Shown here one piece after another: positions 34,941 to 51,936 of a DNA stretch of 64,000 nucleotides. The notes below the pieces were generated by a model. The model had not been told where the DNA came from. It saw only the letters and a program-made list of their open reading frames with translations, and did not search any database. Source of the DNA: Sulfurimonas sp. HSL3-7 (GTDB lineage: Bacteria > Campylobacterota > Campylobacteria > Campylobacterales > Sulfurimonadaceae); NCBI RefSeq assembly GCF_039645985.1, contig NZ_CP147919.1:1178001-1242000 (forward strand), read 5' to 3'. Made by a program: the position numbers and the translations under genes. Within the stretch, counting starts at the first letter, position 1. Each line of letters starts with the position of its first letter.

Positions 34941-35050
34941 CAGAATATTGACCATGTTCTGAAGAGATCGTTCGCAAAAGAGCAGGGATTGCATCTATTT
35001 TATACATGCCTGCCTGCAGAAGCCGCCGTTTTATAGCCTATACTTCGTTT

Positions 35051-36655: not shown

Positions 36656-36792
36656 ACGTCAGGTGTCCGAAATGCGGAGGTGAACCGCTCGGGCATGTCG
36701 TGAAGCAGGTCGTCAACAGAGACAACACGTTTGAGGATGGCAGCAGCAAAAATGAAGAATGGGGTGTAATTGATTATAAGGGGTACCTCTAA
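36652..36792 (+). CDS. Tiny zinc-ribbon protein, overlapping the antiporter stop
   Basis: A 46-codon frame from a TTG that overlaps the TGA of the antiporter gene (TTGA). It reads MNVRCPKCGGEPLGHVVKQ and continues to YKGYL, with one CPKC knuckle and no second Cys pair. The last codons run into the 16-bp motif at 36778-36793. It may be a real coupled micro-protein or a truncated zinc-ribbon gene; evidence is modest. Confidence 0.4.
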   Translation: MNVRCPKCGGEPLGHVVKQVVNRDNTFEDGSSKNEEWGVIDYKGYL

Positions 36793-36793
36793 A
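36778..36793. repeat. Copy 2 of a 16-bp repeated motif
   Basis: AAGGGGTACCTCTAAA, 15 of 16 bases equal to 31478-31493. It forms the end of the tiny zinc-ribbon frame. Confidence 0.4.
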
Positions 36794-36856
36794 GAGATGT
36801 TATGATTAAATAGGTCATCGCAACAGTACTCGCTATCCGATCATGGCAAAAAAAGT

Positions 36857-36862
36857 TATAAT
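36857..36862 (+). promoter_or_regulatory. -10-like element before ftsH
   Basis: TATAAT 18 bp before the ATG at 36880. The spacing would give a very short leader, so the site may not be used alone. Confidence 0.3.
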
Positions 36863-36879
36863 CAATAAAAGGATCGTGT

Positions 36880-38748
36880 ATGCCTCTTAATAAACCCCCA
36901 TTGCCCGATACGCTGAAAAAAAGTCCGTGGTCCAATCTTTTAATGCTCCTTTTCCTGGTTGCGTCACTTATGGTTCTTTATAACTTTTTTGGCGAGCAAA
37001 AAGAGGTCGAAACACTTTCATACAACAGTTTCAAAACAGAGATCGGACAGGGGACGATCAAAGAGATAATGATAGACAAGGATCAGGTGACTGCCGCTGG
37101 CAGGAGAGTACCGGGGCAGAAGCCCCATTATTACAGGACCGTACTCCCGCCGTTTCAAGATAAAGCATTCTTTGACCTCCTGGAAAAGCATCACGTGGAG
37201 ATACGCGTAAAATCCCAGAAAGAGTCCGCTTTATGGGTTGCCCTCGTCTCAATGCTCCCATGGCTGCTGTTTTTATGGCTCATCTTTTTCTTTGCCTCCA
37301 GAATGAGACAGCATATGGACAATGTGCAGGGTGGACTTTTAAACTTCATTAAATCAACCGCCAAAAAATACGAAAAGAGACGAAGTGCCATCGGATATGA
37401 CGATGTGGCGGGGTTGGAGAATGCGAAAAAAGAGCTGGCCGAAGTCGTGGACTTTCTGAAAAACCCCGTAAGGTACGAACAGATCGGGGCACAGATACCC
37501 AAAGGCATCCTTCTGATGGGTCCTCCGGGTACAGGCAAGACACTTCTGGCCAAGGCGGTCGCCGGGGAGGCGGACGTTCCCTTTTTCAGCATCAGCGGTT
37601 CCGAGTTTGTGGAGGTGTTTGTCGGGGTAGGCGCTTCCAGAGTGCGTGACCTGTTCGAGTCTGCAAAGAAGGAGGCGCCGGCCATCGTTTTTATCGATGA
37701 GATCGACTCCATAGGCAGGGCACGCGGTGCGGGAATCGGCGGCGGCTATGATGAAAAGGAGCAGACCCTCAACCAGATCCTATCGGAGCTCGACGGTTTT
37801 GAACCCAACGAGCAGGTAGTCGTCCTGGCGGCCACCAACCGCCCGGACATACTCGATCCTGCCCTGCTGCGTCCGGGAAGGTTTGACCGCAAGATCATCC
37901 TGGCGATGCCTTCGAAAGAGGCCAGAGAGAAGATTCTGCAGATCCATACGAAAAAGGTCCGAAAAGAGGCCTCCGTCGATCTTGCCAAGCTGGCGAAGCT
38001 GACGGTGGGATTCAACGGAGCCGATCTCAAAAACCTTGTCAATGAAGCGGCCATGTATGCCGCCAGGCAGAAAAAAGAGAAGGTGACGCAAGATGATCTG
38101 CTCTATGCCCGCGACCGCATTCTGATGGGGATCGAACAGGAGTTTGCCATGGACGAAAAAGACAAAAAAAGAGTCGCCATCCATGAGGCTGGGCATGCCC
38201 TGACGGCGCTGCTGCTCAAACATGCCGATCCGCTGGAAAAGGTCAGTATCATCCCCCGTGGCTGGGCACTTGGCGCTACGGAACAACTTCCCAAGAAAGA
38301 CATGAGGAACTTCCCGCAATCGTACCTCTTGGACAAGATCGGTGTTATGCTCGGGGGCAGAGTCTCCGAACAGATCCTGCTCCATGAGCTCTCTTCAGGA
38401 GCGGCGAACGACCTTGAAGAGGCTACCGCACTGGCTGTCCATATGGTATGCCAATGGGGGATGAGCAGCGAGATCGGTCCGGTCCACTACAAACGGGGGG
38501 AGGAGCATGTCTTTCTGGGACGGGAGATGGCCATGCCGAAAAACTTTAGCGAAGCTACGGCCAAGCTGATCGATGACGAAGTGAGAATGCTCATCACCCA
38601 AAAAGAGGAGGAGGTGACCAGGCTGCTGAATGTGCACAAAGAGGAGCTCACCCTTCTCGCTGAAGAGCTGCAGGAACGAGAGACAATGAACAAAGAGGAG
38701 ATCGAAATACTGTTGCAGCACTCCAAAAAGACTTCGTCCGCCGAATAG
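36880..38748 (+). CDS. ftsH: ATP-dependent zinc metalloprotease FtsH
   Basis: A 622-residue membrane-anchored AAA protease. Two spans (about residues 20-37 and 122-140) flank a short periplasmic segment. The AAA domain has GPPGTGKT (Walker A, near 212), the pore loop [23 protein letters not shown] (Walker B), [20 protein letters not shown] (SRH), and the protease site [13 protein letters not shown] with the third ligand in [14 protein letters not shown]. It degrades unneeded membrane and regulatory proteins. It may be a second FtsH copy, as its N terminus is unlike the common one. A 187-residue unknown is convergent on the far side. Confidence 0.96.
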
Positions 38749-38810
38749 AATTGTCTCGCAACTATGGTGAAGAATTACAGACGTTTGTTTTTTGTTGAAA
38801 ATAGAATCTA

Positions 38811-38830
38811 TCCTCCCTATAGGAGGGAGG
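38811..38830. terminator. Possible hairpin between ftsH and a convergent gene
   Basis: CCTCC-CTATA-GGAGG is a stable short stem located between the two convergent stop codons. No long T-tract follows on either strand, so it is only a weak candidate. Confidence 0.3.
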
Positions 38831-38833
38831 CTG

Positions 38834-39391
38834 TCAGTTCGTCGCTATGAAACTCTGTTCTATATTGGAAACAGGGACTTTTTCTTTGGTGATCGGTTCG
38901 ATCAGCTCCGTATGAAACGATTCGCCCAGCAGCATCTTTGTCAATACCCGGCGCCGGGCATTCTCAAACGGGACGCCTCTTCTTTCAATTTCGCAGATGG
39001 TGAGGTCATACCCTTCGGGTACGAAGATATCGCCGAAGTATAGCTTTCCGGTATGCTCTGACGGATCGATCTTTATGTGCCCGGTAATGTCGGTTTCGTA
39101 AAAATGGATCATATAGCCGCTGTGATAGGCCATTTTTGTCGACCATACTGCTTTATCGCCGTTATGGATCGGGTCGTGCCTACTGACGGTGTGGTAGGTC
39201 TTGGCGTTGATTGTCATGGTCGTATCTTCGATAATATACCCCTGTCCTGCCGTCATCGCCTTGACAATAATACTGGCATCCGCGTCGCGAAGGGCGAGTT
39301 TTTCGTCAGATCCGCCGACAACGGTGACCGAGTTGCCAAGTACGGCTATATAATCTTTTATTCTTGCATTATTGGTGATCTTAACTGTCAT
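38834..39391 (-). CDS. Unrecognised protein of 185 residues
   Basis: A soluble protein rich in beta-strand, beginning MTVKITNNARIKDYIAVLGNSVTVVGG, with aromatic residues in the middle (YHSGYMIHFYETDITGHIKIDPSEHTG) and a basic end (ENARRRVLTKMLLGESFHTELIEPI). The ATG at 39391 has AAGAG 5 nt before it. No domain or motif is recognised. It is convergent with ftsH and followed upstream by the SPFH-NfeD pair, transcribed in the same direction after a 133-bp gap. Confidence 0.6.
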   Translation of the reverse strand: MTVKITNNARIKDYIAVLGNSVTVVGGSDEKLALRDADASIIVKAMTAGQGYIIEDTTMTINAKTYHTVSRHDPIHNGDKAVWSTKMAYHSGYMIHFYETDITGHIKIDPSEHTGKLYFGDIFVPEGYDLTICEIERRGVPFENARRRVLTKMLLGESFHTELIEPITKEKVPVSNIEQSFIATN

Positions 39392-39524
39392 TGACACTCT
39401 TCATTAAAATTACCATATTATAATGGAATTATGCAAAAGAGAACATAAGGTTGGATCGTCAGGGCGGTTCACACTGCCAAAAACAGTGCGATCGACAGAC
39501 GGAGTGAGCAGAAGGTGGTGGGTA

Positions 39525-40385
39525 CTACCCTTTGTTGAAAATGGAGCCCATCATCCCTTTGACGGTCGCCTGAAGATCGGCGGGGTAGACGACGAACTTG
39601 CTGTTCTCCGATTTGGAGAGCTGGTTCAATGAATCGATGTAGCGGTCGCCGAGCAGGAACATCGCAGGGAACTCTTTGCCCTCCGTCGCCTGCGTGATGT
39701 CGGCGATGGCAGTGGCGGAGGCTCTGGCCAGCGCTATCTGCGCATCGGCCTCTTTCATGGCCGCTTCAAGTTTGCCCTGGGCCTCAAGGACCATGGCGTT
39801 CTTCGTTCCTTCGGCCCGTGTCTCGACGGCGCGTCTCTCACGCTCTGCCGCGGCCTGCTGCTCCATGGCGTGTTGCATGGACTTGGACGGGGTGATGTCC
39901 TGGATCTCCACGGACTTGACCGTAACACCCCAGTCGGCGAGGTCGTCGATGATCTCGCTTTTCAGACGGGCTTTGATGGATTCGCGGTTGGAGAGGGCTT
40001 CGTCGAGTTTCATCTCCCCGATGATCGAACGCAGCGTCGTCATGATCAGGCTGCGGATCGCCTCCCGGAAATCCTCGACGCCGTAGATGGCGTCCTGTGG
40101 TTTCGTCACGCGGATGAAGGCGATGGCATTGGCCAGGATGACCGCATTATCGCTCGTGATCACCTCCTGCTGCGGGATGTCGAGGATGATGTCGCGCGTC
40201 GAGACCTTCTCGCGTACCGAGTCGATGAAGGGGATGATGAGGTTGAGCCCCGGGTTCAGGTTCCTCGAGTACTTCCCGAGACGTTCGATGACCCACTCTT
40301 CACCCTGGGAGACGATCCTGATCCCCTTGAAGAGAACGACGATGACACCGATGACGATAACCAGCAATACATAGAGACTTTCCAT
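39525..40385 (-). CDS. SPFH/Band 7 (QmcA-like, stomatin family) membrane protein
   Basis: A 286-residue protein with one N-terminal span (about residues 4-22) and an SPFH domain: VSQGEEWVIERLGKYSRNLNPGLNLIIPFID and DIPQQEVITSDNAVILANAIAF. A long charged helix (about residues 180-235, ERERRAVETRAEGTKNAMVLEAQG) drives oligomerisation. Stomatin-like proteins form scaffolds at the membrane that organise proteases and channels. It sits directly after an NfeD gene (1-bp gap), the standard partner, and near ftsH, with which such proteins often interact. Confidence 0.92.
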   Translation of the reverse strand: MESLYVLLVIVIGVIVVLFKGIRIVSQGEEWVIERLGKYSRNLNPGLNLIIPFIDSVREKVSTRDIILDIPQQEVITSDNAVILANAIAFIRVTKPQDAIYGVEDFREAIRSLIMTTLRSIIGEMKLDEALSNRESIKARLKSEIIDDLADWGVTVKSVEIQDITPSKSMQHAMEQQAAAERERRAVETRAEGTKNAMVLEAQGKLEAAMKEADAQIALARASATAIADITQATEGKEFPAMFLLGDRYIDSLNQLSKSENSKFVVYPADLQATVKGMMGSIFNKG

Positions 40386-40386
40386 T

Positions 40387-40845
40387 CTATACCAACCTTT
40401 TCACATACATTAATTGACCGCGGATCTCGATGATCTCGACCCGTGTCTCTTCGTCTAGATCCTCGTCGGCAATAGCGAACCACTGGGTATCGCCCAACAC
40501 CGGCGCATCGAACTTCACCTTCCCTTTTTCGCCTTTTCTGATCGTTTCGACCACGGTTCCGTAGACATCGAACGAGTTGTCGGACTGCCCGGCGCGTGAA
40601 GGGGTTTTAGGCTTGAAGACCTTGAACCAGAGATAGATGAAGAGCACTGAGAGGACGATCCAGACTGCCAGCTCGACGGTAAAAGAGGTCCCGAGGGCAA
40701 GGTCCATAAACCCTACGATGAGGGCAGAAAGACCCAGCCAGACAGTGATAAACGAGGGGATAAAGATCTCCGCGACGACCAGTATGCTGCCGAGGATCAG
40801 CCAATGCCACCAAAGCATATGGGAACTCAAAAATTCGATCATCAA
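40387..40845 (-). CDS. NfeD family membrane protein (partner of the SPFH protein)
   Basis: A 152-residue short-form NfeD with three spans (LSSHMLWWHWLILGSILVVAEIFIPSF, then two more up to about residue 75) and a C-terminal OB-fold domain (GTVVETIRKGEKGKVKFDAPVLGDTQWFA). The protein pairs with stomatin/SPFH proteins in membrane scaffolds; the long-form protease domain is missing. It precedes the SPFH gene in the same operon. Confidence 0.9.
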   Translation of the reverse strand: MMIEFLSSHMLWWHWLILGSILVVAEIFIPSFITVWLGLSALIVGFMDLALGTSFTVELAVWIVLSVLFIYLWFKVFKPKTPSRAGQSDNSFDVYGTVVETIRKGEKGKVKFDAPVLGDTQWFAIADEDLDEETRVEIIEIRGQLMYVKRLV

Positions 40846-40948
40846 AACTCCTTGACAACGATAGTAACCAAAATAAACTTACATAAAAGGCCTGCGCAGC
40901 AGGGCTCTCAGCGTCGCGGAACAGAGGTGATCGCTTATCGAGGGGATG

Positions 40949-41182
40949 TCATAAAAACTTTACACAGTTCCTGCCGCTCTCTTTTGCCATATAGAACGCT
41001 TTGTCAGCACGTTGTATGATACTGGTTATCGTGTCATTGTCGCGATAGGTCGTAACCCCAAGACTTGCTGTCTACGGACTGACACTCGTGAACACATGGC
41101 ACTCTATTTCGTGATGTTCTTTGTCATTGGGATGAATGCCGTGCAACCGGGCTATTAGAGCTTGATCTTTTGCGTGTTCCAT
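40949..41182 (-). pseudogene. Decayed GGDEF (diguanylate cyclase) C terminus
   Basis: On the minus strand, a frame from 41182 reads MEHAKDQALIARLHGIHPNDK and continues to a TAG stop at codon 37. The same frame then carries TASLGVTTYRDNDTITSIIQ and RADKAFYMAKESGRN before a final TGA (40949-40951). This is the end of a GGDEF domain, close to that of the intact gene at 50518-51624 (TASFGVTLYNNGDTIASIIK). The GG(D/E)EF loop and N-terminal part are missing. It accounts for most of the 416-bp gap between nfeD and qhpR. Confidence 0.8.
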
Positions 41183-41261
41183 GCGAACACGTGTACATCG
41201 TCATAAAACACTGTTCTTGTATGTAGCAGACCGACCGATTATGGTGTGATCAAGGTGCGTA

Positions 41262-42074
41262 TCAACAATAGATATTACAGGTGTACTGAAGATAGTCCTG
41301 TGAGTTGAGCAGAAACTCTTTCGGGGTTTTGCCTGAAAAGAATTTAAACTCCTTGATAAAGTGGGATTGGTCAGTAAACTGGTTGGCAAGCGCGATCTGG
41401 CTGAATTTTAGGTTGCACTCATTTTGTTTAATGTATTTAAGTGAGTTGTAGAACCTGTTGATACGGTGGATCGTGTTTGGATTGAGTCCGGTGGACTCTT
41501 TTATCTTCCGTTGGATCTGTCGTGTTGAAAGACTCTGCTGCAGGTAGAAATGGTCGAGATCTCCTTTTCTGACAAGGTCCGATGTGCTCAGAAGCAGGGC
41601 GTCAGGACGGAACCTCTGATAGAAGAGCTTGTAGAGAAAATCGTTCAGACAGTTCAGCGAGAGCTCGACGTTCCCCTTGTAGCGGATCAGTTTTTCGAGT
41701 ATGGATTCGTCAAAATTAAGTGAAAGCTCTTTGACATTGTACATTCTGTGTTCCATCGCAGTGATCGGAATACCGAAGAGGTTGAAAAAGACGCCGGGGT
41801 ACAAGGTCACATCAACCGCATACAACTCATCGTTGAGTGCCGTTGCATACTTTTCCATCGAAGGCGGCGAGATATAGATGCCGTATTCGAGCGTCGATCC
41901 GTAACAAAAAGAGTTTTCGGTGTGATTGGTTAATATAAAGGTAAGACAGACACAACCGTCAGGCATGATGATCTTCTCCTCCATCTTCTCCTTGCCATCT
42001 TGTTCAAGAAACCAGATCACTTTTACCCAGTCTTTTAACTTATCATCCGGTAGATACATACTGTGTTTAAACAA
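41262..42074 (-). CDS. qhpR: AraC-family regulator, likely QhpR of the amine dehydrogenase operon
   Basis: A 270-residue protein. The N-terminal sensor half (about residues 1-150) has no signal peptide. The C-terminal AraC double HTH (about residues 165-260) includes QSLSTRQIQRKIKESTGLNPNTI and FSQIALANQFTDQSHFIKEFK. TTG at 42074 is chosen, since GAGGG lies 6 nt before it. It is divergent from qhpA, with 200 bp between them. In Paracoccus, QhpR is an AraC-type activator induced by n-butylamine. The same position and type here suggest the same role. Confidence 0.85.
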   Translation of the reverse strand: MFKHSMYLPDDKLKDWVKVIWFLEQDGKEKMEEKIIMPDGCVCLTFILTNHTENSFCYGSTLEYGIYISPPSMEKYATALNDELYAVDVTLYPGVFFNLFGIPITAMEHRMYNVKELSLNFDESILEKLIRYKGNVELSLNCLNDFLYKLFYQRFRPDALLLSTSDLVRKGDLDHFYLQQSLSTRQIQRKIKESTGLNPNTIHRINRFYNSLKYIKQNECNLKFSQIALANQFTDQSHFIKEFKFFSGKTPKEFLLNSQDYLQYTCNIYC

Positions 42075-42203
42075 AAGTAACCCTCATCGAGAAATATAAC
42101 TATGTCAATAGTAGCACTTATCAAATTGGGGCAGAATAGGCAGTTGTATAAATATTGAGCATAGATGTCGTATATTTACTATACCTCAGAGAGGCCCAAT
42201 TCC

Positions 42204-42209
42204 TATAAT
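42204..42209 (+). promoter_or_regulatory. -10 element for the qhp operon
   Basis: TATAAT about 66 bp before the qhpA start, in the qhpR-qhpA divergent gap. QhpR sites would be expected just upstream. Confidence 0.45.
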
Positions 42210-42274
42210 TACCGCATCACAAATCTTTACACAAAGACTGAAGAGTGTGAAATATCTATTTTAGGAAGTGAACC

Positions 42275-43876
42275 TTGAATTACAACAGGTTATATAAATT
42301 TGGACTTGGTGCCATATTGTCTTCAGTACCGCTATTTGCAGCAGTAGATGCAAAAATGGGTGCTGAAATAATTAATAGTAAATGTACGGCATGTCACAGC
42401 GGGACCCTTGGGACGGGACTGAGCAGAATCTCAGACCAGAGAAAGTCGCCGGAAGGGTGGTACATGACGATCTCCAGAATGCAGCGTCACGGCCTGGACC
42501 TTACAACAGAAGAACGCATGAGTGCCGTGAAATATCTCTCTGACAACCAGGGGTTGACACCGGATGAACTCATGCCGTATGTCTATGTATTGGACAAGAC
42601 GCCGAACGCTATGGAAGAGGGCAAAGATGAGCTGTTGACTGAGATGTGCGTACGCTGTCACTCGGAAGCACGCATCGGTCTTCAGAGACGAACGGCGGAC
42701 GAATGGAGAGGACTGGTCAATTTCCATGTCGCTCAATTCATCTCGTTCGAAGTACAGGCTCAGGCGCGTGACAGAGACTGGTTCGGTGTCGCCAATAACG
42801 AGATCGTACCTTACCTCGAAGCCAATTTCGGTAAAGATGAAAAGGTGTGGAAAGCGTATCAGGAGTCGATCAAAGGTTTTGAACTTCCTCTAAAATGGAG
42901 TGTCTATGGTCACACGCCTGGCAAGGGTGATTTTAAAGCAGACCTGACTTTTACCAAGAACAGCGACGAAACCTATGCGGTCACGATGCTCTCAGAATAT
43001 GCTGACGGTGAGAAAGTGACAGCCGAAGGTACAGGTATTGCCTACAGCGGTACGGAAGTAAGAGCCTCTTTGGAGCAAAACGGTGTGGCAATGCAGCAGA
43101 TCATGCACGTCAACGCGTCGGACGGCACTTTCACGGGTCGTGTCTACGAAACACTGCACAACGAGAACGGAAGCTATCTGAAAGCGACGGCAGCAGACAA
43201 AAAAGAGACGGAGATCGCCGGTGTTTATCCTAAAGCGCTAAAAGCGGGCGAGAGTACGACACTAACGATCGTCGGTTCAAATCTTGGCGGGACAGTATCA
43301 CTCAACGGTGATGTAAAAGTACTCAAGACACTGAAGCAGAACGAGAACGAGATCGTGCTTGAAGTGCAAGCGGACAAGGCTGCCAAAACCTCACAGAGCA
43401 GTATCACGATCGGCAGTGCTGTGTTTGAAAACAGCTTTGCGGTCTATGAAAAAGTGGACTATGTAAGTGTAACGCCGGACTATGCCGTCTCAAGAACGGG
43501 AAGCGAAGCGAAAAATTCTAAAATTCTTAAACAATATGCGACCTTTGAAGCGATCGGTTTCAGTAACGGTGCTGACGGAGAACAGGGAACTGAGGACGAC
43601 GTAAATCTTGGTGTCTTGCCGGTGACCTGGAATATCGAGCCGTTCGATGAGCAGGCAATCAAAGATAAAGATGTTCTGTATGCCGGAAGTATTAACCGTT
43701 ATACAGGAATGTTCACGCCGAGTGAAGACGGTTTGAACCCTAAACGAACGTATTCGACGAACAATGTCGGGAACCTCTTTATCGTGGCGACTTACCTTCA
43801 GGACGACGGGCAGATCGACGGGAAAGCACACCTTATCGCTACGGTGCCTAAATTCGTTAATCCGCCGATCAATTAA
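42275..43876 (+). CDS. qhpA: Quinohemoprotein amine dehydrogenase alpha subunit (diheme)
   Basis: A 533-residue secreted protein with a signal peptide (about residues 1-26, GAILSSVPLFAAVDA). An N-terminal diheme cytochrome domain has CTACH at residues 37-41 and CVRCH near 125. The rest is beta-rich, as in the alpha subunit whose later domains are Ig-like (GVYPKALKAGESTTLTIVGSN). In the periplasm it receives electrons from the CTQ cofactor of the gamma subunit and passes them to an electron carrier. It starts at TTG with AGGAAGTG just upstream and heads qhpADCBFEG. Length is close to known QhpA. Confidence 0.93.
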   Translation: MNYNRLYKFGLGAILSSVPLFAAVDAKMGAEIINSKCTACHSGTLGTGLSRISDQRKSPEGWYMTISRMQRHGLDLTTEERMSAVKYLSDNQGLTPDELMPYVYVLDKTPNAMEEGKDELLTEMCVRCHSEARIGLQRRTADEWRGLVNFHVAQFISFEVQAQARDRDWFGVANNEIVPYLEANFGKDEKVWKAYQESIKGFELPLKWSVYGHTPGKGDFKADLTFTKNSDETYAVTMLSEYADGEKVTAEGTGIAYSGTEVRASLEQNGVAMQQIMHVNASDGTFTGRVYETLHNENGSYLKATAADKKETEIAGVYPKALKAGESTTLTIVGSNLGGTVSLNGDVKVLKTLKQNENEIVLEVQADKAAKTSQSSITIGSAVFENSFAVYEKVDYVSVTPDYAVSRTGSEAKNSKILKQYATFEAIGFSNGADGEQGTEDDVNLGVLPVTWNIEPFDEQAIKDKDVLYAGSINRYTGMFTPSEDGLNPKRTYSTNNVGNLFIVATYLQDDGQIDGKAHLIATVPKFVNPPIN

Positions 43877-43885
43877 GGGTGTCCT

Positions 43886-45268
43886 ATGAGCATTTTGAAT
43901 GTAAAGAATTACAATCTTATCAGAACGAATTACCATCTCATGAAAGTGGATGAAAAAGAGGTCCTGTTCCATATTCCGAGTTCGTCTGTTTTCGAACTCT
44001 CTGGAGAGAGTTCAAAGGTCTTAAGACAGCTCGAAAATGAGGAAGATATCGACCCGGGACATGTCGAGATACTTGAAGAGTTCAGAGAGTTGGACATTCT
44101 GGGTGCCAAGTTCTTCCTAAAAGAAGAACCGACAAAAATAGAGACGTTCCCGGCAAAAGCGCTGGTGCTGAATGTCACTTCGGGGTGTAACCTGAGTTGT
44201 ACCTACTGTTACAAAGAGGATCTGACCTCGTTGAAGAACAGCGGTGATATGACACTCGAAATAGCCAAAGATGCGATCGACCTCTTTTTTAAAGAGTCCC
44301 CGTATCTACCGGAGTATTCGATCACCTTTTTCGGCGGTGAGCCTATCAGCAATCTGCCGCTGATCAAAGAGATCATCAGTTATGCCAACGACTTCTTTGG
44401 CAGTAAGGGACTCGGGATCGGGTACGGGATGACAACGAACGCCACCTTGCTGACAGATGAGATCATCCATTATCTGCACGACAATAAAGTGGACTTGACG
44501 GTCAGTATTGACGGACCCGAAGCGCTTCACAACAAGACGCGCGTCTATGAGGGCGGAAAAGGAAGTTATGAACGAGTCGTCAAAAACCTCTCATCCCTTC
44601 TTTCGATCTATCAAGACAGAACGGTCGGGGCAAGGGTAACGCTGACGAGAGGCGTGACGGACATCGAGGCCATCTGGAATCACCTCCGCCATGATCTGAA
44701 CTTTAAAGAGGTTGGTTTTGCGCCGGTCACGTCCGGAGAGAGCGATATGTTCAACCTTTCCGATCGCGATCTTTCAAAGGTCTTTGATGGGTTCAGAGTT
44801 TTAGCGGACGATTATATTGCCGAAGCGATCAAAGGAAACTTCAACGGGTTCTCCAACCTGCACAGGACGGTGACCGACATCCATGAAGGCAGAAAGAAAA
44901 AGCTGCCTTGCGGTGCGGGCGTCGGTCTGCTGTCGGTCTCGTATAAAGGCGATATCGATCTCTGCCACCGTTTTACCGGTTCGGAGTATCCTTCTTTCGG
45001 AAGCGTTGCCAAGGGGCTCGATAAAAAAGCACTTTCGACCTTCCTCGAAAAGCGGGCGAACGACAAAGGGACCGACTGCCAGACCTGCCGCATCAGAAAC
45101 CTCTGTGCGGGCGGCTGCTACCACGAGAGCTACATCAAGTACGGGACACCTGAAAAGTCTGTCCTTCATTACTGCGATGAGATGCGTGACTGGATCGATC
45201 TGGCGATCTATGCTTATGTCAAGATCAAGGCCGGAAACCCGGAATTTTTTACAAAATATTTTAAATAA
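43886..45268 (+). CDS. qhpD: Radical SAM/SPASM cross-linking enzyme QhpD
   Basis: A 460-residue radical SAM enzyme with the cluster motif CNLSCTYCYKE near residues 101-111. Barrel motifs ITFFGGEPISN and YGMTTNATLL follow. The C-terminal SPASM part binds two further clusters (LPCGAG, DLCHRF, CQTCRIRNLCAGGCYHESY). QhpD forms the three Cys-to-Asp/Glu thioether links in the gamma subunit in the cytoplasm. It lies directly between qhpA (9-bp gap) and the gamma gene it modifies, which fixes its identity among SPASM proteins. Confidence 0.95.
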   Translation: MSILNVKNYNLIRTNYHLMKVDEKEVLFHIPSSSVFELSGESSKVLRQLENEEDIDPGHVEILEEFRELDILGAKFFLKEEPTKIETFPAKALVLNVTSGCNLSCTYCYKEDLTSLKNSGDMTLEIAKDAIDLFFKESPYLPEYSITFFGGEPISNLPLIKEIISYANDFFGSKGLGIGYGMTTNATLLTDEIIHYLHDNKVDLTVSIDGPEALHNKTRVYEGGKGSYERVVKNLSSLLSIYQDRTVGARVTLTRGVTDIEAIWNHLRHDLNFKEVGFAPVTSGESDMFNLSDRDLSKVFDGFRVLADDYIAEAIKGNFNGFSNLHRTVTDIHEGRKKKLPCGAGVGLLSVSYKGDIDLCHRFTGSEYPSFGSVAKGLDKKALSTFLEKRANDKGTDCQTCRIRNLCAGGCYHESYIKYGTPEKSVLHYCDEMRDWIDLAIYAYVKIKAGNPEFFTKYFK

Positions 45269-45279
45269 GGGAAGAAAAG

Positions 45280-45600
45280 ATGAAACATTTAAAACCAATA
45301 ACACCAAAGGCAGAGCTTTTGGAAGAGGCTGTTGAAAGCGGTACCGCCAAAGAGGTCGTCGCGATGTCGAGTATCGTCGGCTGTGTCACAACGTTCGATC
45401 CGGGCTGGGAAGTCGATGAGGATGGAGGACTTGCGAGTCTCTGCCAGCCTCTGCAGGCAGACTTATACGGTTGTTCCGATCCGTGCTGGTGGCCGACACA
45501 GGTACCGGATACCTCGTCGAGCTACAAAAAGTGGGCTGACAAATCCCCGTCAACGAAAGACGACTGGCGGGAACTTGACAATGTGTATCCAAAAAAATAA
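45280..45600 (+). CDS. qhpC: Quinohemoprotein amine dehydrogenase gamma subunit (CTQ-bearing)
   Basis: A 106-residue precursor. Taking a 28-residue leader (to Ala28), the mature chain has 78 residues. All known cross-link residues match the Pseudomonas/Paracoccus numbering: Cys7, Glu16, Cys27, Asp33, Cys37, Cys41, Trp43 and Asp49 (precursor C35, E44, C55, D61, C65, C69, W71, D77). Cys37 and Trp43 form the cysteine tryptophylquinone cofactor. The other three pairs are thioether bridges. The leader is not a Sec signal peptide, so export needs QhpF and removal needs QhpE. The gene is short but strictly conserved in these positions. Confidence 0.95.
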   Translation: MKHLKPITPKAELLEEAVESGTAKEVVAMSSIVGCVTTFDPGWEVDEDGGLASLCQPLQADLYGCSDPCWWPTQVPDTSSSYKKWADKSPSTKDDWRELDNVYPKK

Positions 45601-45615
45601 GGTGAGGGAAAAGAG

Positions 45616-46743
45616 ATGCTAAACAAAAAAATTACTATAAACATAATAGGTCTTGTAGCTATGTCTATGGCGTTTTCAGGCTGTGCAAAAACGGCCTTGA
45701 CTGAGAAAGCGCCAACGGCAGACTCGGGTCAGGATTATCTGGTCACAATGACGAGACCGAACAACCTTGTCCTGGTCGATCTTGAGACAAATAAAGTGAT
45801 CAACGAGTGTAAAATCGACGAAAGCTTCTCTCCTGGAGGGGTTATACTCGCACCGGATTACAAGACGGCCTACATCATCGGCGGCTTCGGCGAAGAGATT
45901 GCCGGCTATGAGATCGACACCTGTAAAAAGGTCTTTCATACCTCTTTGACGCAGGGTGACATCAAGGGGCAGACTCTTTCAGGTCTTGCCGTCAGTGAAG
46001 ACAGCAAGAAAGTCTATGTCATCTATAATAGAACAAAGATGGGACTGGACCGTTATACGGTTCTAGACCCGATGTTCTCTGTTTATGATGTCAAAGACGG
46101 GCTTGATGCAAAAGAGGTGAAGAGCTTCGTGATACCGAGACAGATGACGGAGATCAGTACAGCCTATGACGGTACGGTTTTCGGGATCGGTTCGGCCCTC
46201 TATGAGATCAACCCGAACACGGGCGATATCAAAGTCGTCAAAAAGATCGTCGGGTGGGACAGAAAAGGTTACAGCGACGCGGACTCTGCCGGGAATTACC
46301 TCATAGGACAGCAGCAGGGTGATTTCTCGACACTGTATGCGACCTTGAAGTATGAAGACCCGGATGTCCCTTCTGAAGATGGGACCTGGTACTGGGGTAT
46401 TACAAGTGTGGACCTGAGAACAAAAGAGGTGACGCAGGTTGAGTTTACGGAGTATGAGACCTTGATGTTTACGGCGATCAGAAGTCCGAACGATTCGAAC
46501 ATTCTTTACGGTTCACTCAATGACTTGAGCAAGTTCGATATTAAAAATCAGAAGGTGCTCAACCGTATCACACTGGATCACACCTATTACAGTGTCGTTC
46601 CTTCGCCGGACGGCAGCAAATTGTATGTGGGCGGTTGTTTGGATGACATTACCGTTTATGACGAAGCAACGTTCGAAAAACTGGGCAAGATCCACCTCTC
46701 CGGCGATATGGGTGCGGCAGCAATGCAGATCTTCCATAAATAA
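45616..46743 (+). CDS. qhpB: Quinohemoprotein amine dehydrogenase beta subunit (seven-bladed propeller, lipoprotein)
   Basis: A 375-residue protein with beta-propeller repeats (for example YLVTMTRPNNLVLVDLETNKVIN, then APDYKTAYIIGGFGEE, and PSPDGSKLYVGGCLDDITVYD near the end). In known enzymes this subunit contributes to the active-site cavity around CTQ. The N terminus has a lipobox, AFSGC, with Cys23, preceded by a hydrophobic stretch, so the mature subunit is probably lipidated, which is unusual. It follows qhpC at a 15-bp gap. Confidence 0.92.
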   Translation: MLNKKITINIIGLVAMSMAFSGCAKTALTEKAPTADSGQDYLVTMTRPNNLVLVDLETNKVINECKIDESFSPGGVILAPDYKTAYIIGGFGEEIAGYEIDTCKKVFHTSLTQGDIKGQTLSGLAVSEDSKKVYVIYNRTKMGLDRYTVLDPMFSVYDVKDGLDAKEVKSFVIPRQMTEISTAYDGTVFGIGSALYEINPNTGDIKVVKKIVGWDRKGYSDADSAGNYLIGQQQGDFSTLYATLKYEDPDVPSEDGTWYWGITSVDLRTKEVTQVEFTEYETLMFTAIRSPNDSNILYGSLNDLSKFDIKNQKVLNRITLDHTYYSVVPSPDGSKLYVGGCLDDITVYDEATFEKLGKIHLSGDMGAAAMQIFHK

Positions 46744-46755
46744 AAAGTAGAAGAG

Positions 46756-48414
46756 ATGTTTTCTGCAATGCCGCCATTGATCAAAAATACGATCCTTCCG
46801 CTTCTGAAAGAGAACAGGAGAGGGTTTTTTGTCATCTTCCTGTTGTCGACGCTCGTCTCTTTGAGCGGCGCATTGCAGCCATTTATCATGCAGCACATCA
46901 TCGACGATGCGCTGCTCTCGGCTAACCTGGATCAGCTCTTTATCCTGGTTGCCGTATCGTTTTTCCTGACCATCTTTGCTATGTTCATCAGCAGTGTCAA
47001 CGAACTTTTTTACACTTCGACATCGATGAATGTGCTGTTTGCGTTCAGAGAGAAGATCTTCGCAAGACTCTTTCTGCACAACAAACAGTTTATGACCCGT
47101 TACCACTCGGCCGATCTTATGTCAAGGGTGCAGGGTGATGTCAGCGAACTGCAGCGTTTCTTTACGGACTCGCTCTTCGCGCTCTTCTCAACTATCATTA
47201 GTCTTGTGTTTATCTCGGTCATCATCTATGCGTATAACATAAAACTAATGATACTGATCATCGTCTTCCTGCCGATCGAGTTCTTCTGTCTAAGGCCGCT
47301 CTACCCGCATATGCATGACAGTACCAAGAATGTACGTGAAAGCACGTCGGACATCAGCAAGTTTTTTATAGAGAGTTTCCGCTACATCCCGGTGCTCAAA
47401 AACCTGGGGGCGAAAGAGGGGACCATCGCTAAACTGGGCACGATCCAAAACGACTATAAAGAGGTCGTTATAAAGAACAAGAAACTCAATCTGCTCTTTA
47501 CGCAGCTGCCTGCTTTCATCTCGTTGCTGGGCAAAACCCTTATTATCTCATACGGCGGCTACCTGACCATCAACGGGGAGCTTAAACTGGGTGAGCTGAT
47601 CGCGTTTTTGACCTATTTCGGCATGATCCTGGCCCCGGTCAATACGATACTGGGGATCATCAACAACCTGCCCAAAGTCAAAGTCAGTCTGAACAGGGTA
47701 ATGGAGATCCTGCCGAACGAGGAGCAGCCCAAAAGATTCCGCGCTGAGCGTTTCGATATTGCCGTAGAGGGACTCTCCTTCGCCTACGGGGACAATGTTA
47801 TCTTCGAGGGTTTGAACCTCTGCATCGCAGAGAAGAGCAAAATAGCGATCATCGGCAGGAACGGCATCGGTAAAAGTACCTTTGGCGACCTGCTGTGCGG
47901 TCTGCAGTCATGTACTCAAGGAACCGTTTCGATCGGCATGCAAGAGATAGGCAAAGAGAACTTTACGAACCTGCACCATTACATCGTCAAACTGGAACAG
48001 ACGCCGGTCATCTTCGACGACACGCTGCGCGGGAACCTGCTGCTGGCCAAACCGGACGCGAGTGACGAAGAGCTGATCGCCTCTCTGGAGCAGACCGGGA
48101 TGCTGGCATGGTTCGAGAGCCTGCAAGAGGGGCTGGAGACCAATATCTACGAAGCAGGGGACAACCTCTCCGGCGGGCAGAAGCAACGGATCGCACTCTC
48201 AAGGATCATCCTGCTTAAACCAAAGATCATTATTCTCGACGAGTTTACCTCCGCGATCGACCGGAAAGATACCGAGTGGTTTTTTGAGAACATCACCGGG
48301 CTCTTTCCGGAGGCTACAATCGTTGCCATAACGCATCATCTCGACATGTTGCGCCATTTCGACACGGTCTATGAACTCGATGAGCAGACCTTCAAGGAGG
48401 TGAAACATGGCTGA
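46756..48414 (+). CDS. qhpF: ABC-type exporter QhpF
   Basis: A 552-residue half-transporter with six spans in the N-terminal half and an ATPase domain in the second. The ATPase has GRNGIGKST (Walker A), VKLEQTP (Q loop), NLSGGQKQRIALSR (signature) and KIIILDEFTS (Walker B). H of the switch is in ITHHLDM. It is probably the transporter that moves the cross-linked gamma subunit to the periplasm. A fused peptidase domain is not present; cleavage is left to QhpE. Confidence 0.92.
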   Translation: MFSAMPPLIKNTILPLLKENRRGFFVIFLLSTLVSLSGALQPFIMQHIIDDALLSANLDQLFILVAVSFFLTIFAMFISSVNELFYTSTSMNVLFAFREKIFARLFLHNKQFMTRYHSADLMSRVQGDVSELQRFFTDSLFALFSTIISLVFISVIIYAYNIKLMILIIVFLPIEFFCLRPLYPHMHDSTKNVRESTSDISKFFIESFRYIPVLKNLGAKEGTIAKLGTIQNDYKEVVIKNKKLNLLFTQLPAFISLLGKTLIISYGGYLTINGELKLGELIAFLTYFGMILAPVNTILGIINNLPKVKVSLNRVMEILPNEEQPKRFRAERFDIAVEGLSFAYGDNVIFEGLNLCIAEKSKIAIIGRNGIGKSTFGDLLCGLQSCTQGTVSIGMQEIGKENFTNLHHYIVKLEQTPVIFDDTLRGNLLLAKPDASDEELIASLEQTGMLAWFESLQEGLETNIYEAGDNLSGGQKQRIALSRIILLKPKIIILDEFTSAIDRKDTEWFFENITGLFPEATIVAITHHLDMLRHFDTVYELDEQTFKEVKHG

Positions 48415-49042
48415 GAGAGAGGTGTTTGTAGCGCTGATCGACAGCGGCTGCAGTTTCGAGACCTACTACAAGGCGGCCATAGAGGTTGAAGCAAAGAGAC
48501 CGAAGGTGGTCGAGCCGAAAGCAGTACGTTTCAAACACGGCGACACGGTCGGCGCGATCATTACGGAGGCAGCCAATGTCGCACTCTATGATATCCAGGT
48601 TTTCGACGAACGTCTGGCAACGACACCGTTACATGTTCTCGGGGCTTTGGAGTACATGATGGAAAAGAAGGTCGACCTTATCCATCTGAGTCTGGGGCTA
48701 AAAACGAACTACAGGGAGATCGAATCGCTTTGCGAAGCATTGATTGAAAAAGGGGTCGCCATCGTCGCCTCTTTTCCGAGAGCGGGGGCGGAGTTTGTCT
48801 ACCCGGCCTCGTATGACGGTGTCATCAGCGTGACCTCGGACGGCATGTGCGCCGAGGGCGAGGTCAGCCTGCTTAACGAGAAGAGACTGATTTTCGGGGC
48901 CAATCCTTTGTCAAATGTTGAGGGTGTGGGCGGTTCCAGTGTTGCCGTCGCAAAATTCACCAGGCTCTTCTGCCGCTATCTCGGGGAAGGCTATAGTCGG
49001 GATGAGAGCCTGGAACTTATAAAGAAAGGGGCTATACGATGA
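48407..49042 (+). CDS. qhpE: Subtilisin-like serine protease QhpE
   Basis: A 211-residue S8-like protein with the catalytic triad Asp12 (ALIDSG), His44 (FKHGDTVGAI) and Ser177 or Ser178 (GVGGSSVAVAKF). No signal peptide is present, so it works in the cytoplasm. In Paracoccus, QhpE removes the 28-residue leader of the gamma subunit after QhpD has made the cross-links. It is much shorter than secreted subtilisins. It overlaps qhpF by 8 bp and qhpG by 4 bp. Confidence 0.93.
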   Translation: MAEREVFVALIDSGCSFETYYKAAIEVEAKRPKVVEPKAVRFKHGDTVGAIITEAANVALYDIQVFDERLATTPLHVLGALEYMMEKKVDLIHLSLGLKTNYREIESLCEALIEKGVAIVASFPRAGAEFVYPASYDGVISVTSDGMCAEGEVSLLNEKRLIFGANPLSNVEGVGGSSVAVAKFTRLFCRYLGEGYSRDESLELIKKGAIR

Positions 49043-50373
49043 GTAGTGAAAAGAGCTGTCTGGTCCTGGGTGCAGGCATCGCCGGTGTTACCACGGCGAT
49101 CGGGCTGAAAAAGCTCGGTTTCGGGGTGACGCTTTTTTATAAAAGACGTCCTTTTACCGCTTATGAAGGTTTTTCGGAAAAGACGAAAGAGGGGCTGCTC
49201 TCAAGCGGCTGCAGCAGGGCTTCACGGCTGCTTGAAATCGAGTCGGTCCGAAATGCCAACTGGGCTGAAGCGTCTGAAAAAGTCAATTACGAATATGTCG
49301 TCTGCCGCGATGATCTCGACCGTGCGCTGCTCGAAGATGCCGGGTCCTCCGGCGTCGTCTGTGTGGAGGCGACGGTGGTCGGCGGCATCGACTGCAGTGA
49401 AGCGCGGCCGAAGGTCGGCTATAAGTACAACGGCCGCCAGTTCGAATCGGCGGCGGATTTTATCGTTGACGCGAGGGGAAGGTTTACCCCTTTCAAAGAG
49501 GCCTATGTCTGTGGACCGAAAAGCTTTTCCATTCTTCAGGAGCTCGAGATAGAAGCGATGAATGAAAAACGGACCTCAATTGACTCAACGCAGGACGGCT
49601 GGGTGTGGCAGGCCTATGTCGGCGGTAAACGGGGGTATGTACAGTTTACCTGCGACGAAAGCACGGCGGCGTCAGTCAACAGTTTTGAGGACCTTTTGGC
49701 ACTGCTGAGCGGACAGAACGCGGAGCTGTGGAGTCTGAAGAGTGCGAAACCGGTGAAACGGATCGTTAAAAGGGATGCCTACAGCAAGCTGCACAGAGAG
49801 ATCATTAATGAGAAGATGATGCTGGTGGGTGATGCGGCGTCCAGCATTGACCCGCTCTCAGGAAACGGTGCCTTTCAGGCGATGAGTATGTCGAGTATCG
49901 CCCCTTTCGTTGTCAACACGATTTTAGAGGGCAGTGCCGATGAAAAGCAGACTGCGATCGATTTTTACAAAGAGCGGGTCCGTTTGATCTTTGACAAGTT
50001 CTCGAAGGTGGGAAGGGATTTTTACAGACTCGAACAACGCTATGAGAGCGGTTTCTGGCAGGAACGTCAGAACTGGCCTTCGGAAGTATCTGCAGGTGTG
50101 CAGACCCTTCCGCGCATTGAAAAAAGAGCCGTTGTGAAAGTACCGAATATCCATGCTCAGGAGGTCGTTATTACGAAAAGCAACCCGATGGGTGTCTGTT
50201 ACTACGGCGATCTCGAAGTGGTAGCTCTCGCAAGGCTGTGTCTTGAAAATACGCCTGAACAGTCGTGGAACTATGTGGATGATTTTTGCAGGGACCGGGC
50301 GCTACCTTCTGCAACAGCCAATTCCCTGAAACATTGGCTTGTATCACAGAACATAGTAAGTATCAGTCATTGA
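49039..50373 (+). CDS. qhpG: FAD-dependent monooxygenase QhpG
   Basis: A 444-residue flavoprotein of the halogenase/hydroxylase type. It has the N-terminal FAD fold LVLGAGIAGVTTAIGLKKLG, and MLVGDAASSIDPLSGNGAFQAM near residue 270. QhpG dihydroxylates the cofactor Trp of the gamma subunit to allow CTQ formation. It is the last gene of the operon (4-bp overlap with qhpE). The next gene is on the other strand. Confidence 0.93.
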   Translation: MSSEKSCLVLGAGIAGVTTAIGLKKLGFGVTLFYKRRPFTAYEGFSEKTKEGLLSSGCSRASRLLEIESVRNANWAEASEKVNYEYVVCRDDLDRALLEDAGSSGVVCVEATVVGGIDCSEARPKVGYKYNGRQFESAADFIVDARGRFTPFKEAYVCGPKSFSILQELEIEAMNEKRTSIDSTQDGWVWQAYVGGKRGYVQFTCDESTAASVNSFEDLLALLSGQNAELWSLKSAKPVKRIVKRDAYSKLHREIINEKMMLVGDAASSIDPLSGNGAFQAMSMSSIAPFVVNTILEGSADEKQTAIDFYKERVRLIFDKFSKVGRDFYRLEQRYESGFWQERQNWPSEVSAGVQTLPRIEKRAVVKVPNIHAQEVVITKSNPMGVCYYGDLEVVALARLCLENTPEQSWNYVDDFCRDRALPSATANSLKHWLVSQNIVSISH

Positions 50374-50517
50374 TATCTTGTTCGCCATGCGCGGATTAAT
50401 AGTGTTATGAAGCTGTATGGTGTGTCCAAAGTGGTCTGTAACCATGAAAGAGCTATCCATCACGGTAAGATTACTATATAAGGTAATCAATTGTTTATAC
50501 TGTCGGCTGCGCAGCAC

Positions 50518-51624
50518 TCATATGAATTCGATGCGGTTTCTGCCCTTTTCTTTTGCTGCGTAGAGCGCACTGTCCGCTCTTTTGATGATCGATGCGATGG
50601 TGTCGCCGTTGTTATAGAGCGTCACACCGAAGCTTGCTGTTACGTCTCCGACCTTTTCAAAAGTATGGTTTTCGATTTTCTGGCGGAGTTCTTCCGCCAA
50701 TGTCAGGAGCTCATCGGTATTCGTTTCCAGGTAGATGATAATAAATTCTTCGCCGCCCCAGCGCACGGCTTTGTCAGTCGAACGAAGATGCTCTTTGATC
50801 AGCTCCGCTATACTCACGAGAACGGCATCGCCCACCTGATGCCCGTAGTTGTCGTTGACGTTCTTGAAGTGGTCTATGTCCAAAACGACTATCCCGAAGG
50901 CATGCCCGAAACGCTGGCTCCGGTCCAGTTCGTTTTGCAGGATCTCGTCGAGCCTGGTGCGGTTGAACAGCTCTGTCAATTTATCGGTCACCGCTAAGCG
51001 TTCGAGCTGATCGTGGTTAAGAAAAACACGTTTATTGGATCTTTCCAGAAGGTAGGCGCCCAAAAGACCGAACGAGAATGCCGAAAACATCCAGAAAAAA
51101 TGCATGATGAAAAGTTCTTGCGGAAGCGGGAAGAGGAAAAAGGTCGTAATAAAGACGACCGTGAATGTTGAGAATGCGCTGAGTGTTGCCTGCATCAGCC
51201 GCAGTCCGGAGACGGTGAATGTCCAGAACAGTATAAGATAGAGCTCAGTCAGGTAGGTGGCAGGATTGTCTACATTCGCAACGATAACCAGGTTCCCGAC
51301 AGACGCACCAATAGGTGCCAGGAGCAGCAAAGTGACCGCTAACTCGGGAAGTTTTTTTGAAAAGGAAAGCAGACTTATTAAAAACAGGACAGGCGCGATA
51401 AGATATAAATGGATCGTTGTCATCATCGGTACCATTTGCGGGGGCGCGACATAATGGTCCAGCAGAGAATATATCACATACAGGGTTCCGGTAAGAAAAC
51501 TTACAGCAGAGATCTGTAGACGGTTTAACGAGGCGAGCCACGTATTGAACTCTTCTTCGACTCTTTTGTTTTGAAAGTGATTGGGATGGAAATGATGATA
51601 TGAGTCTATTTGTTTGTCTGTCAT
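50518..51624 (-). CDS. Membrane-bound diguanylate cyclase (GGDEF)
   Basis: A 368-residue protein with about six to seven spans in the first 200 residues and a C-terminal GGDEF domain: LDIDHFKNVNDNYGHQVGD, then RSTD (I-site) five residues before GGEEF, and ADSALYAAKEKGRN at the end. All catalytic and inhibitory-site residues are present, so it should make c-di-GMP and be subject to product inhibition. The input signal is unknown. It is convergent with the qhp operon and related to the pseudogene at 40949. Confidence 0.93.
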   Translation of the reverse strand: MTDKQIDSYHHFHPNHFQNKRVEEEFNTWLASLNRLQISAVSFLTGTLYVIYSLLDHYVAPPQMVPMMTTIHLYLIAPVLFLISLLSFSKKLPELAVTLLLLAPIGASVGNLVIVANVDNPATYLTELYLILFWTFTVSGLRLMQATLSAFSTFTVVFITTFFLFPLPQELFIMHFFWMFSAFSFGLLGAYLLERSNKRVFLNHDQLERLAVTDKLTELFNRTRLDEILQNELDRSQRFGHAFGIVVLDIDHFKNVNDNYGHQVGDAVLVSIAELIKEHLRSTDKAVRWGGEEFIIIYLETNTDELLTLAEELRQKIENHTFEKVGDVTASFGVTLYNNGDTIASIIKRADSALYAAKEKGRNRIEFI

Positions 51625-51936
51625 AGGGCAAATATCCTCGTTTTAGATAGGTGGTTTTTCTCAGTTATGAATGATCTTATCAAAAAATGATTAGACAGGT
51701 AATAATAGATGTTGGCCATTCCGAGCTTAATTCTAACATACAGTTTAATGCACCTCTGACATTTTTGGTTACAAAACGTTGTATAAGTTTTAATCGAACG
51801 TATCGAATCAGGCCGCTGTGCGAATGTATTCCTCTATTTCGGTGCTTCTGCGCAATACGTTGAGAACGCATTCCGATGATATCACATTGTTTAGGTAAAA
51901 TTAGTCCATACATAAAACGCAAGGACCACTTTACTC
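51625..51936. other. 312-bp gap with a possible IS remnant
   Basis: No confident gene is present. A minus-strand frame (51680-51922, 80 codons) has no recognisable domain. Bases 51868-51885 (GCATTCCGATGATATCAC) resemble the terminal repeat sequence that I recall from some IS21-family elements; no transposase is left. A TAAAAT-type -10 before the next gene is at its right end. Confidence 0.3.

Follow-up and report, generated by a model that had tools for sequence, protein, structure and literature searches.

Does the genome of Sulfurimonas sp. HSL3-7 encode a complete quinohemoprotein amine dehydrogenase system, and, if it does, is the enzyme new to the Campylobacterota and where did its genes come from? 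The window, by which we mean the whole stretch of 64,000 nucleotides that was analyzed, contains at positions 41262–50373 an intact qhp locus, which is composed of a divergent AraC-type regulator gene followed on the plus strand by qhpA-D-C-B-F-E-G. We are highly confident in reading this locus as a complete qhp operon for a cysteine-tryptophylquinone (CTQ) quinohemoprotein amine dehydrogenase, likely acquired from Arcobacteraceae-like relatives or from a common source.

All eight open reading frames are present at the coordinates in table 1; re-translation of qhpA to qhpG revealed no internal stop codon, and a purine-rich stretch lies upstream of every start. The A, D, C, B, E, and G proteins were named by curated NCBIfam equivalog models scoring above their cut-offs: QH_alpha for QhpA (537.5 bits; cut-off 274.35), QhpD (568.7 bits; cut-off 453), QH_gamma for QhpC (155.5 bits; cut-off 50), QH_beta for QhpB (308.1 bits; cut-off 223.2), QhpE (192.1 bits; cut-off 165), and QhpG (389.8 bits; cut-off 240). 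QhpF is an ABC exporter (PF00664 and PF00005); no dedicated QhpF model is among the matches listed, and the name rests on position and on an identity of 40–74% to its counterparts in 12 relative loci. Matches to solved structures were obtained for A, B, and C (1jmx/1jju) and for G (7ctq). QhpA has the four-domain architecture of the alpha subunit (PF09098, PF14930, PF09099, and PF09100) together with two CxxCH motifs, and QhpB is identified as the beta-propeller subunit by its equivalog model and its match to 1jmx_B. The presence of dedicated QhpD, QhpE, and QhpG proteins and of the exporter QhpF, the last recognized by Pfam domains and position, is that of a qhp operon. Chance is excluded as the source of the locus.

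Table 1. Features of the qhp locus and of its edges, with positions in the window.
Feature	Position	Strand	Evidence
AraC-type regulator, qhpR position, divergent from qhpA	41262..42074	-	PF20240 + HTH_18; same-place homologues in relatives, 36–47% identity
qhpA, alpha subunit, two c-type hemes, TTG start	42275..43876	+	TIGR03908; CxxCH at 37, 125; 1jmx_A
qhpD, radical SAM/SPASM cross-linking enzyme	43886..45268	+	TIGR03906; CNLSCTYC at 101 + seven further Cys
qhpC, gamma subunit, 28-residue leader	45280..45600	+	NF037958; cross-link residues in mature part
qhpB, beta subunit, predicted lipoprotein (FSGC, Cys23)	45616..46743	+	TIGR03907; 1jmx_B; lipobox pattern
qhpF, ABC exporter	46756..48414	+	PF00664, PF00005; Walker A, LSGG, Walker B motifs
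qhpE, subtilisin-like leader protease	48407..49042	+	NF049966; D12, H44, S178
qhpG, flavin monooxygenase (peptidyl Trp dihydroxylase)	49039..50373	+	NF049967; 7ctq_A
Shared promoter element TGTCGT-N5-TACTATAC, predicted regulator site	42166..42184	+	R-A intergenic alignment
TATAATT, likely -10 box	42204..42210	+	19 bases past element
Decayed GGDEF gene 3' end, left edge of locus	40951..41035	-	78% identity over 85 bases to G400 GGDEF 3' end
GGDEF protein, right edge	50518..51624	-	orthologue adjoins kef in G400

The residues required for maturation and catalysis point in the same direction. QhpD has the CX3CX2C motif and seven further cysteines, and all ten cysteines are kept in at least 97% of 31 aligned rows. 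The mature part of QhpC contains C7, E16, C27, D33, C37, C41, W43, and D49, which would supply the Cys and Trp of CTQ and the residues of the three Cys-Asp/Glu cross-link pairs of a gamma subunit; the assignment of each cysteine to its Asp or Glu partner is our assumption. In QhpE, D12, H44, and S178, which we take to be the catalytic triad, are invariant (28 rows). The heme, cross-link, radical-SAM, and protease residues thus appear to be those of a working enzyme, and the locus is real, complete, and probably a working qhp operon, so that the original prediction of a complete quinohemoprotein amine dehydrogenase locus in a Campylobacterota-related genome is upheld by both family models and key residues.

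In the scheme that we propose, the genes and residues come from this analysis, the chemistry comes from work on Paracoccus and Pseudomonas, with the maturation mechanism as presented in the relevant part of a published account (PMC7876137), and the substrate and the electron acceptor are deduced. QhpC would be made with its 28-residue leader, QhpD would introduce three Cys-to-Asp/Glu thioethers, QhpG would dihydroxylate the CTQ tryptophan, QhpE would cut off the leader, and QhpF would export the product; in the periplasm, QhpC would assemble with diheme QhpA and beta-propeller QhpB. By analogy, the mature enzyme would oxidize a primary amine to an aldehyde and ammonia and pass electrons via its hemes to a c-type cytochrome and then probably to a cbb3 oxidase. 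We infer this path from amine through the dehydrogenase and cytochrome c to the oxidase from the published model and from the gene content of the genome: ccoN, a gene of the cbb3 oxidase, is present, as are genes for aldehyde dehydrogenases, and a search with the copper-protein model PF00127 returned no match, which speaks against an azurin-type carrier of that family. The three full-length matches to the aldehyde dehydrogenase family lie outside the window, two of them stand-alone and one within a 1195-residue frame, and neither stand-alone protein has an NCBIfam model above cut-off among the 25 matches listed for each. No aldehyde dehydrogenase (PF00171) is encoded in the window, unlike the three plasmid records examined, each of which has such a gene near qhp. 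Likewise, in a search of 13 relative loci for linked catabolic genes, no recognized aldehyde dehydrogenase is found among the neighbor clusters present in at least three loci; these clusters include MutS-like, histidine-biosynthesis-like, and GGDEF genes, names that are our own reading apart from that of the GGDEF gene in L014 (Pfam).

This scheme leaves the benefit to the cell to be considered. The original prediction saw in the enzyme a new source of carbon, nitrogen, and energy, which is a putative role, and it is possible, if rather unlikely, that the enzyme is made for the removal or sensing of an amine and not for growth. The lack of an aldehyde dehydrogenase in the window fits such a role, as does the statement, in the relevant part of the Arcobacter butzleri RM4018 genome paper (PMC2147049), that this strain failed to grow when n-butylamine, benzylamine, or methylamine was the sole carbon source. 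However, those reported results concern just three amines and one strain from a different family, the genome does have genes for a cbb3 oxidase and for aldehyde dehydrogenases at other sites, and the known enzyme is described as supplying energy, carbon, and nitrogen (PMC7876137, in the part concerned).

The original prediction further suggested that the enzyme was new to the phylum, being aware of no earlier description there. Novelty at this level is refuted by the same A. butzleri RM4018 genome paper of 2007, which in the relevant part reports the enzyme (QHAmDH) and terms it novel in the epsilon subdivision (PMC2147049). That part also describes the relevant motifs as conserved in AB0466 and AB0467, the radical SAM and gamma-subunit genes, and the gamma-subunit gene of the amine dehydrogenase is, according to the pertinent text of another paper, the target of an A. 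butzleri qPCR assay (PMC6403187). The A. butzleri locus, as so described, resembles that of the window in belonging to the same phylum, in having the radical SAM and gamma-subunit genes, and in keeping their motifs; it differs in belonging to another family, and our gene-by-gene comparison was made with genomes of the presumed Arcobacteraceae. Judged by titles and abstract openings, the papers listed in literature searches contained no further Campylobacterota description of the enzyme.

A survey of genomes likewise found the locus elsewhere in the phylum. Of 397 genomes sampled throughout the Campylobacterota, 8 have the gamma-subunit family PF08992, namely the window's own and seven of one other family, which we infer to be the Arcobacteraceae. 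Within that second family, 12 of 104 genomes carry PF08992 (qhpC), a count that becomes 12 of 88 at ≥90% completeness and ≤5% contamination. The window's own family gave 1 of 200 sampled genomes (1 of 137 at the same thresholds), the carrier being the window's genome itself; the locus is therefore sporadic in this family. No match was found in any of 14 control genomes. Given the 2007 report and the 12 of 104 carriers, the proposal of a notable expansion to a new phylum fails.

The arrangement of the genes unites these loci. The block with divergent R followed by A-D-C-B-F-E-G is shared by the window and every one of the 12 carriers in the other family. The original prediction had described this order as that of Paracoccus and Pseudomonas, which holds for A-D-C-B and not for E, F, G, and R: in Paracoccus pantotrophus, a divergent G precedes A-D-C-B-E-F and an opposite-strand R, and on a P. 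nitroreducens plasmid, F and G lie upstream of A-D-C-B-E. Among 82 loci from outside the Campylobacterota (79 genome contigs and 3 plasmids, the relatives being the best 80 of at least 452 confirmed), the commonest orders are F-E-G-A-D-C-B (26) and G-A-D-C-B-F-E (20); A-D-C-B-F-E-G occurs in two, both from Oceanospirillaceae. These orders were sorted by the start of open reading frames with hits above 45 bits, many stretches end at contig ends, and the few strings with B/C or C/D swapped reflect over-extended reading frames. The two Oceanospirillaceae loci (Thalassolituus L032 and Oceanobacter L087) resemble the window in that A-D-C-B is followed by F-E-G, all on the same strand, and QhpB has a lipobox; they differ in that the start of F lies over 3 kb past that of qhpB, and their QhpD proteins are 44–45% identical to that of the window. 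The Paracoccus and Pseudomonas QHNDH systems (1jju, 1jmx, 7ctq) share with the window all subunits, maturation enzymes, and cross-link residues, and differ in the order of E, F, G, and R and in the predicted lipoprotein signal of the window's QhpB. The relevant part of the published account places the qhp operon in more than 1300 species, with variable arrangement, order, and strands (PMC7876137).

The regulator also differs from that of P. pantotrophus. As comparator we used the P. pantotrophus AraC gene beside qhpF, taken as QhpR by its position. The window's R protein has an HTH_18 domain and an N-terminal PF20240 domain, in contrast to the N-terminal PF12625 domain of the P. pantotrophus protein, and the two are alike in the DNA-binding part alone (21% identity over 80 residues); we therefore do not assign R as an ortholog of the Paracoccus AraC-type QhpR. 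Gene order and regulator are not defining for the enzyme family.

Phylogenetic analysis places the window's locus with its Campylobacterota relatives. In a QhpD tree of 45 rows, all 16 copies from Campylobacterota fall into a single clade (100/100) composed of two types, A and B, and the window lies inside type A (10 rows, 100/100), nested among relatives to which its QhpD is at most 81% identical. FastTree analysis of concatenated A, D, and B (the 88 rows with all three long enough, of 93 with QhpB) agrees on the Campylobacterota clade and on the nesting of the window but sets it beside other type-A copies, so the phylogeny supports one clade with the window nested within it and leaves its exact place different between trees. 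For an AU test, five rows that were short or long (L063, L091, L021, L095, and L135) were removed beforehand; L020 was excluded from later counts as a duplicate of L137. In the reduced tree, the window remains in type A (9 rows, 100/99) with no firm closer position, and a clade of the 14 other copies that excludes the window is rejected (p 0.0023). We take the nesting among type-A relatives as fair, not final, evidence, because that clade was named post hoc, after the tree had been seen, row composition differs strongly, and long branches meet in the QhpD trees. Direct capture from Paracoccus or Pseudomonas is not supported, as the Campylobacterota copies form one clade in both analyses within the outgroup sample, which, as the best 80 of at least 452 relatives, is incomplete. 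Two Halieaceae loci (L063 and L091) with 57% QhpD identity were considered as close donors and set aside, their QhpD pieces being just 75 and 71 residues; in the tree they group, not strongly supported, with gamma- and betaproteobacteria.

The surroundings of the locus bear on how it arrived. In a same-genus genome (G400, 99% complete) that has no PF08992 match, the kef and GGDEF orthologues lie approximately 0.6 kb apart, with kef read as two open reading frames in this draft. The corresponding interval in the window, from kef (35006–36655) to the GGDEF gene at the right edge, spans 13.9 kb and contains genes for an FtsH-type protease, a Pfam-less protein, and SPFH and NfeD-type proteins in addition to the qhp locus. 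The first four of these genes (36880–40845) are absent from the equivalent place in G400, and matches to the SPFH protein within the genus show just 32–41% identity, one 24-residue match apart. None of the three further genus loci fetched has a kef match beside its GGDEF gene. A search for flanking repeats in 36600–51700 yielded short matches, none of them recognizable as terminal repeats among those listed (direct families, 20 of 42; inverted pairs, 25 of 26); a mobile element with flanking repeats is not supported, and the decayed GGDEF end is the sole edge mark. The locus may have been acquired by recombination between GGDEF genes, but the coincidence of GGDEF genes at the two edges is weak because the right-edge protein has 34 matches in the 2.87-Mb genome, a number that seems high. 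Of 13 relative loci, 7 have a related GGDEF-type gene directly past qhpG and on the strand opposite to it (L014 14979–16838 and its counterparts in six others, approximately 620 residues where complete; Pfam was checked on L014 alone), and in L013 such a gene shares the strand of qhpG at a distance of 2.6 kb. A GGDEF gene opposite the end of qhpG may reflect synteny of the site or a linked sensor.

Given the rarity of the locus in the window's family and the adjacency of kef and GGDEF genes without qhp in one same-genus genome, acquisition from Arcobacteraceae-like relatives is the best reading of these data, though an unproven one. G+C content is 44% for R, 48–54% for qhpA to qhpG, and 48–58% for the other genes measured, and third-position G+C of qhpA to qhpG (53–69%) is on the low side of that of the neighbors (58–82%), whereas Arcobacteraceae-like qhp loci have a G+C content of 25–29%, a difference that counts against transfer. 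The locus most likely came from such relatives, or from a source common to both, early enough for its base composition to have become that of its host. That composition would also suit a locus ancestral to both families and lost in nearly all of the window's family, the enzyme being identical in either case, as would the single Campylobacterota clade; moreover, two-copy genomes exist, and an old duplication followed by loss could mimic the nesting. We nevertheless judge ancestry with loss improbable given one carrier among 200 sampled family members, the nesting of the window in one type together with the AU test and its caveats, and the closeness of kef and GGDEF genes in G400. Contamination or assembly error, for which the rarity of the locus in the family might speak, can be dismissed with near certainty: the locus is part of a genome assembled as a single contig of 2.87 Mb, its G+C content resembles that of its neighbors, and the flanking genes match genus mates (kef, 91–92%; sodium:dicarboxylate symporter, 79–85%). 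The transfer from Arcobacteraceae-like relatives or a common source is nonetheless less certain than the identification of the enzyme.

Alignment of 16 R-A intergenic stretches (10 type A, 6 type B) revealed a shared element, TGTCGT-N5-TACTATAC, which we predict to be the site of the R protein. It is present with zero or one mismatch in 9 of the 10 type-A stretches, including that of the window, and is absent from the tenth (the upstream copy in L137); in the same nine stretches, TATAAT follows 18–19 bases after the element. Five of the six type-B stretches have it with one or two mismatches, and the sixth (L015) lacks it. A TGTATA-N6-TATACA-like palindrome precedes the element clearly in many relatives, and the window retains its first half only. 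The core of the element has one exact match in the window's genome; matches with up to two mismatches are meaningless, since the reversed control has more of them (19 versus 13).

The copies also differ at the N-terminus of QhpB. By pattern match, a lipobox is present in the window's QhpB (FSGC, Cys23), in all six type-B copies, and in three of three Oceanospirillaceae copies; among nine type-A Arcobacteraceae-like copies, eight have none and one (L013) is ambiguous. Ten of 16 proteobacterial QhpB rows are unreadable owing to over-extended starts, and the other six comprise three with a lipobox (the Oceanospirillaceae) and three without. The enzymes studied to date are described, in the relevant part of the published account, as periplasmic (PMC7876137), and a complex tethered through a lipoprotein QhpB is plausible from the predicted signal. 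Three genomes (G374, G549, and G554) have two qhp copies. A second R-A-D-C-B set lies just upstream of the full block in G374 and G554, and in G374 both types are arranged in tandem ahead of one F-E-G set; in G549, the second set lies elsewhere (L136), with no qhp-like E, F, or G in the fetched stretch. The qhpD gene of the G549 main block (L135 8483–9895) is interrupted by a change of frame part-way in a one-contig genome, and that of the second copy is full-length. In G370 (L018 5113–14970), type-B A-D-C-B genes (46, 57, 61, and 38% identical to those of the window) are followed by type-A-like F-E-G genes (67, 56, and 59%), and the array looks as if the middle of a tandem had been deleted; this combination suggests that E, F, and G can serve divergent QhpC types. 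That the beta lipoprotein anchors the whole complex, and that soluble and anchored isozymes share one E-F-G set in some relatives, is a proposal to which we assign even chances.

The locus does not open a new phylum to the enzyme. What it adds is a second family to a phylum in which this respiratory amine oxidase had been described before, and one eight-gene block, mostly together with its promoter element, recurs in that phylum. The predicted lipoprotein beta subunit and the maturation genes shared in two-copy genomes are small, testable additions.
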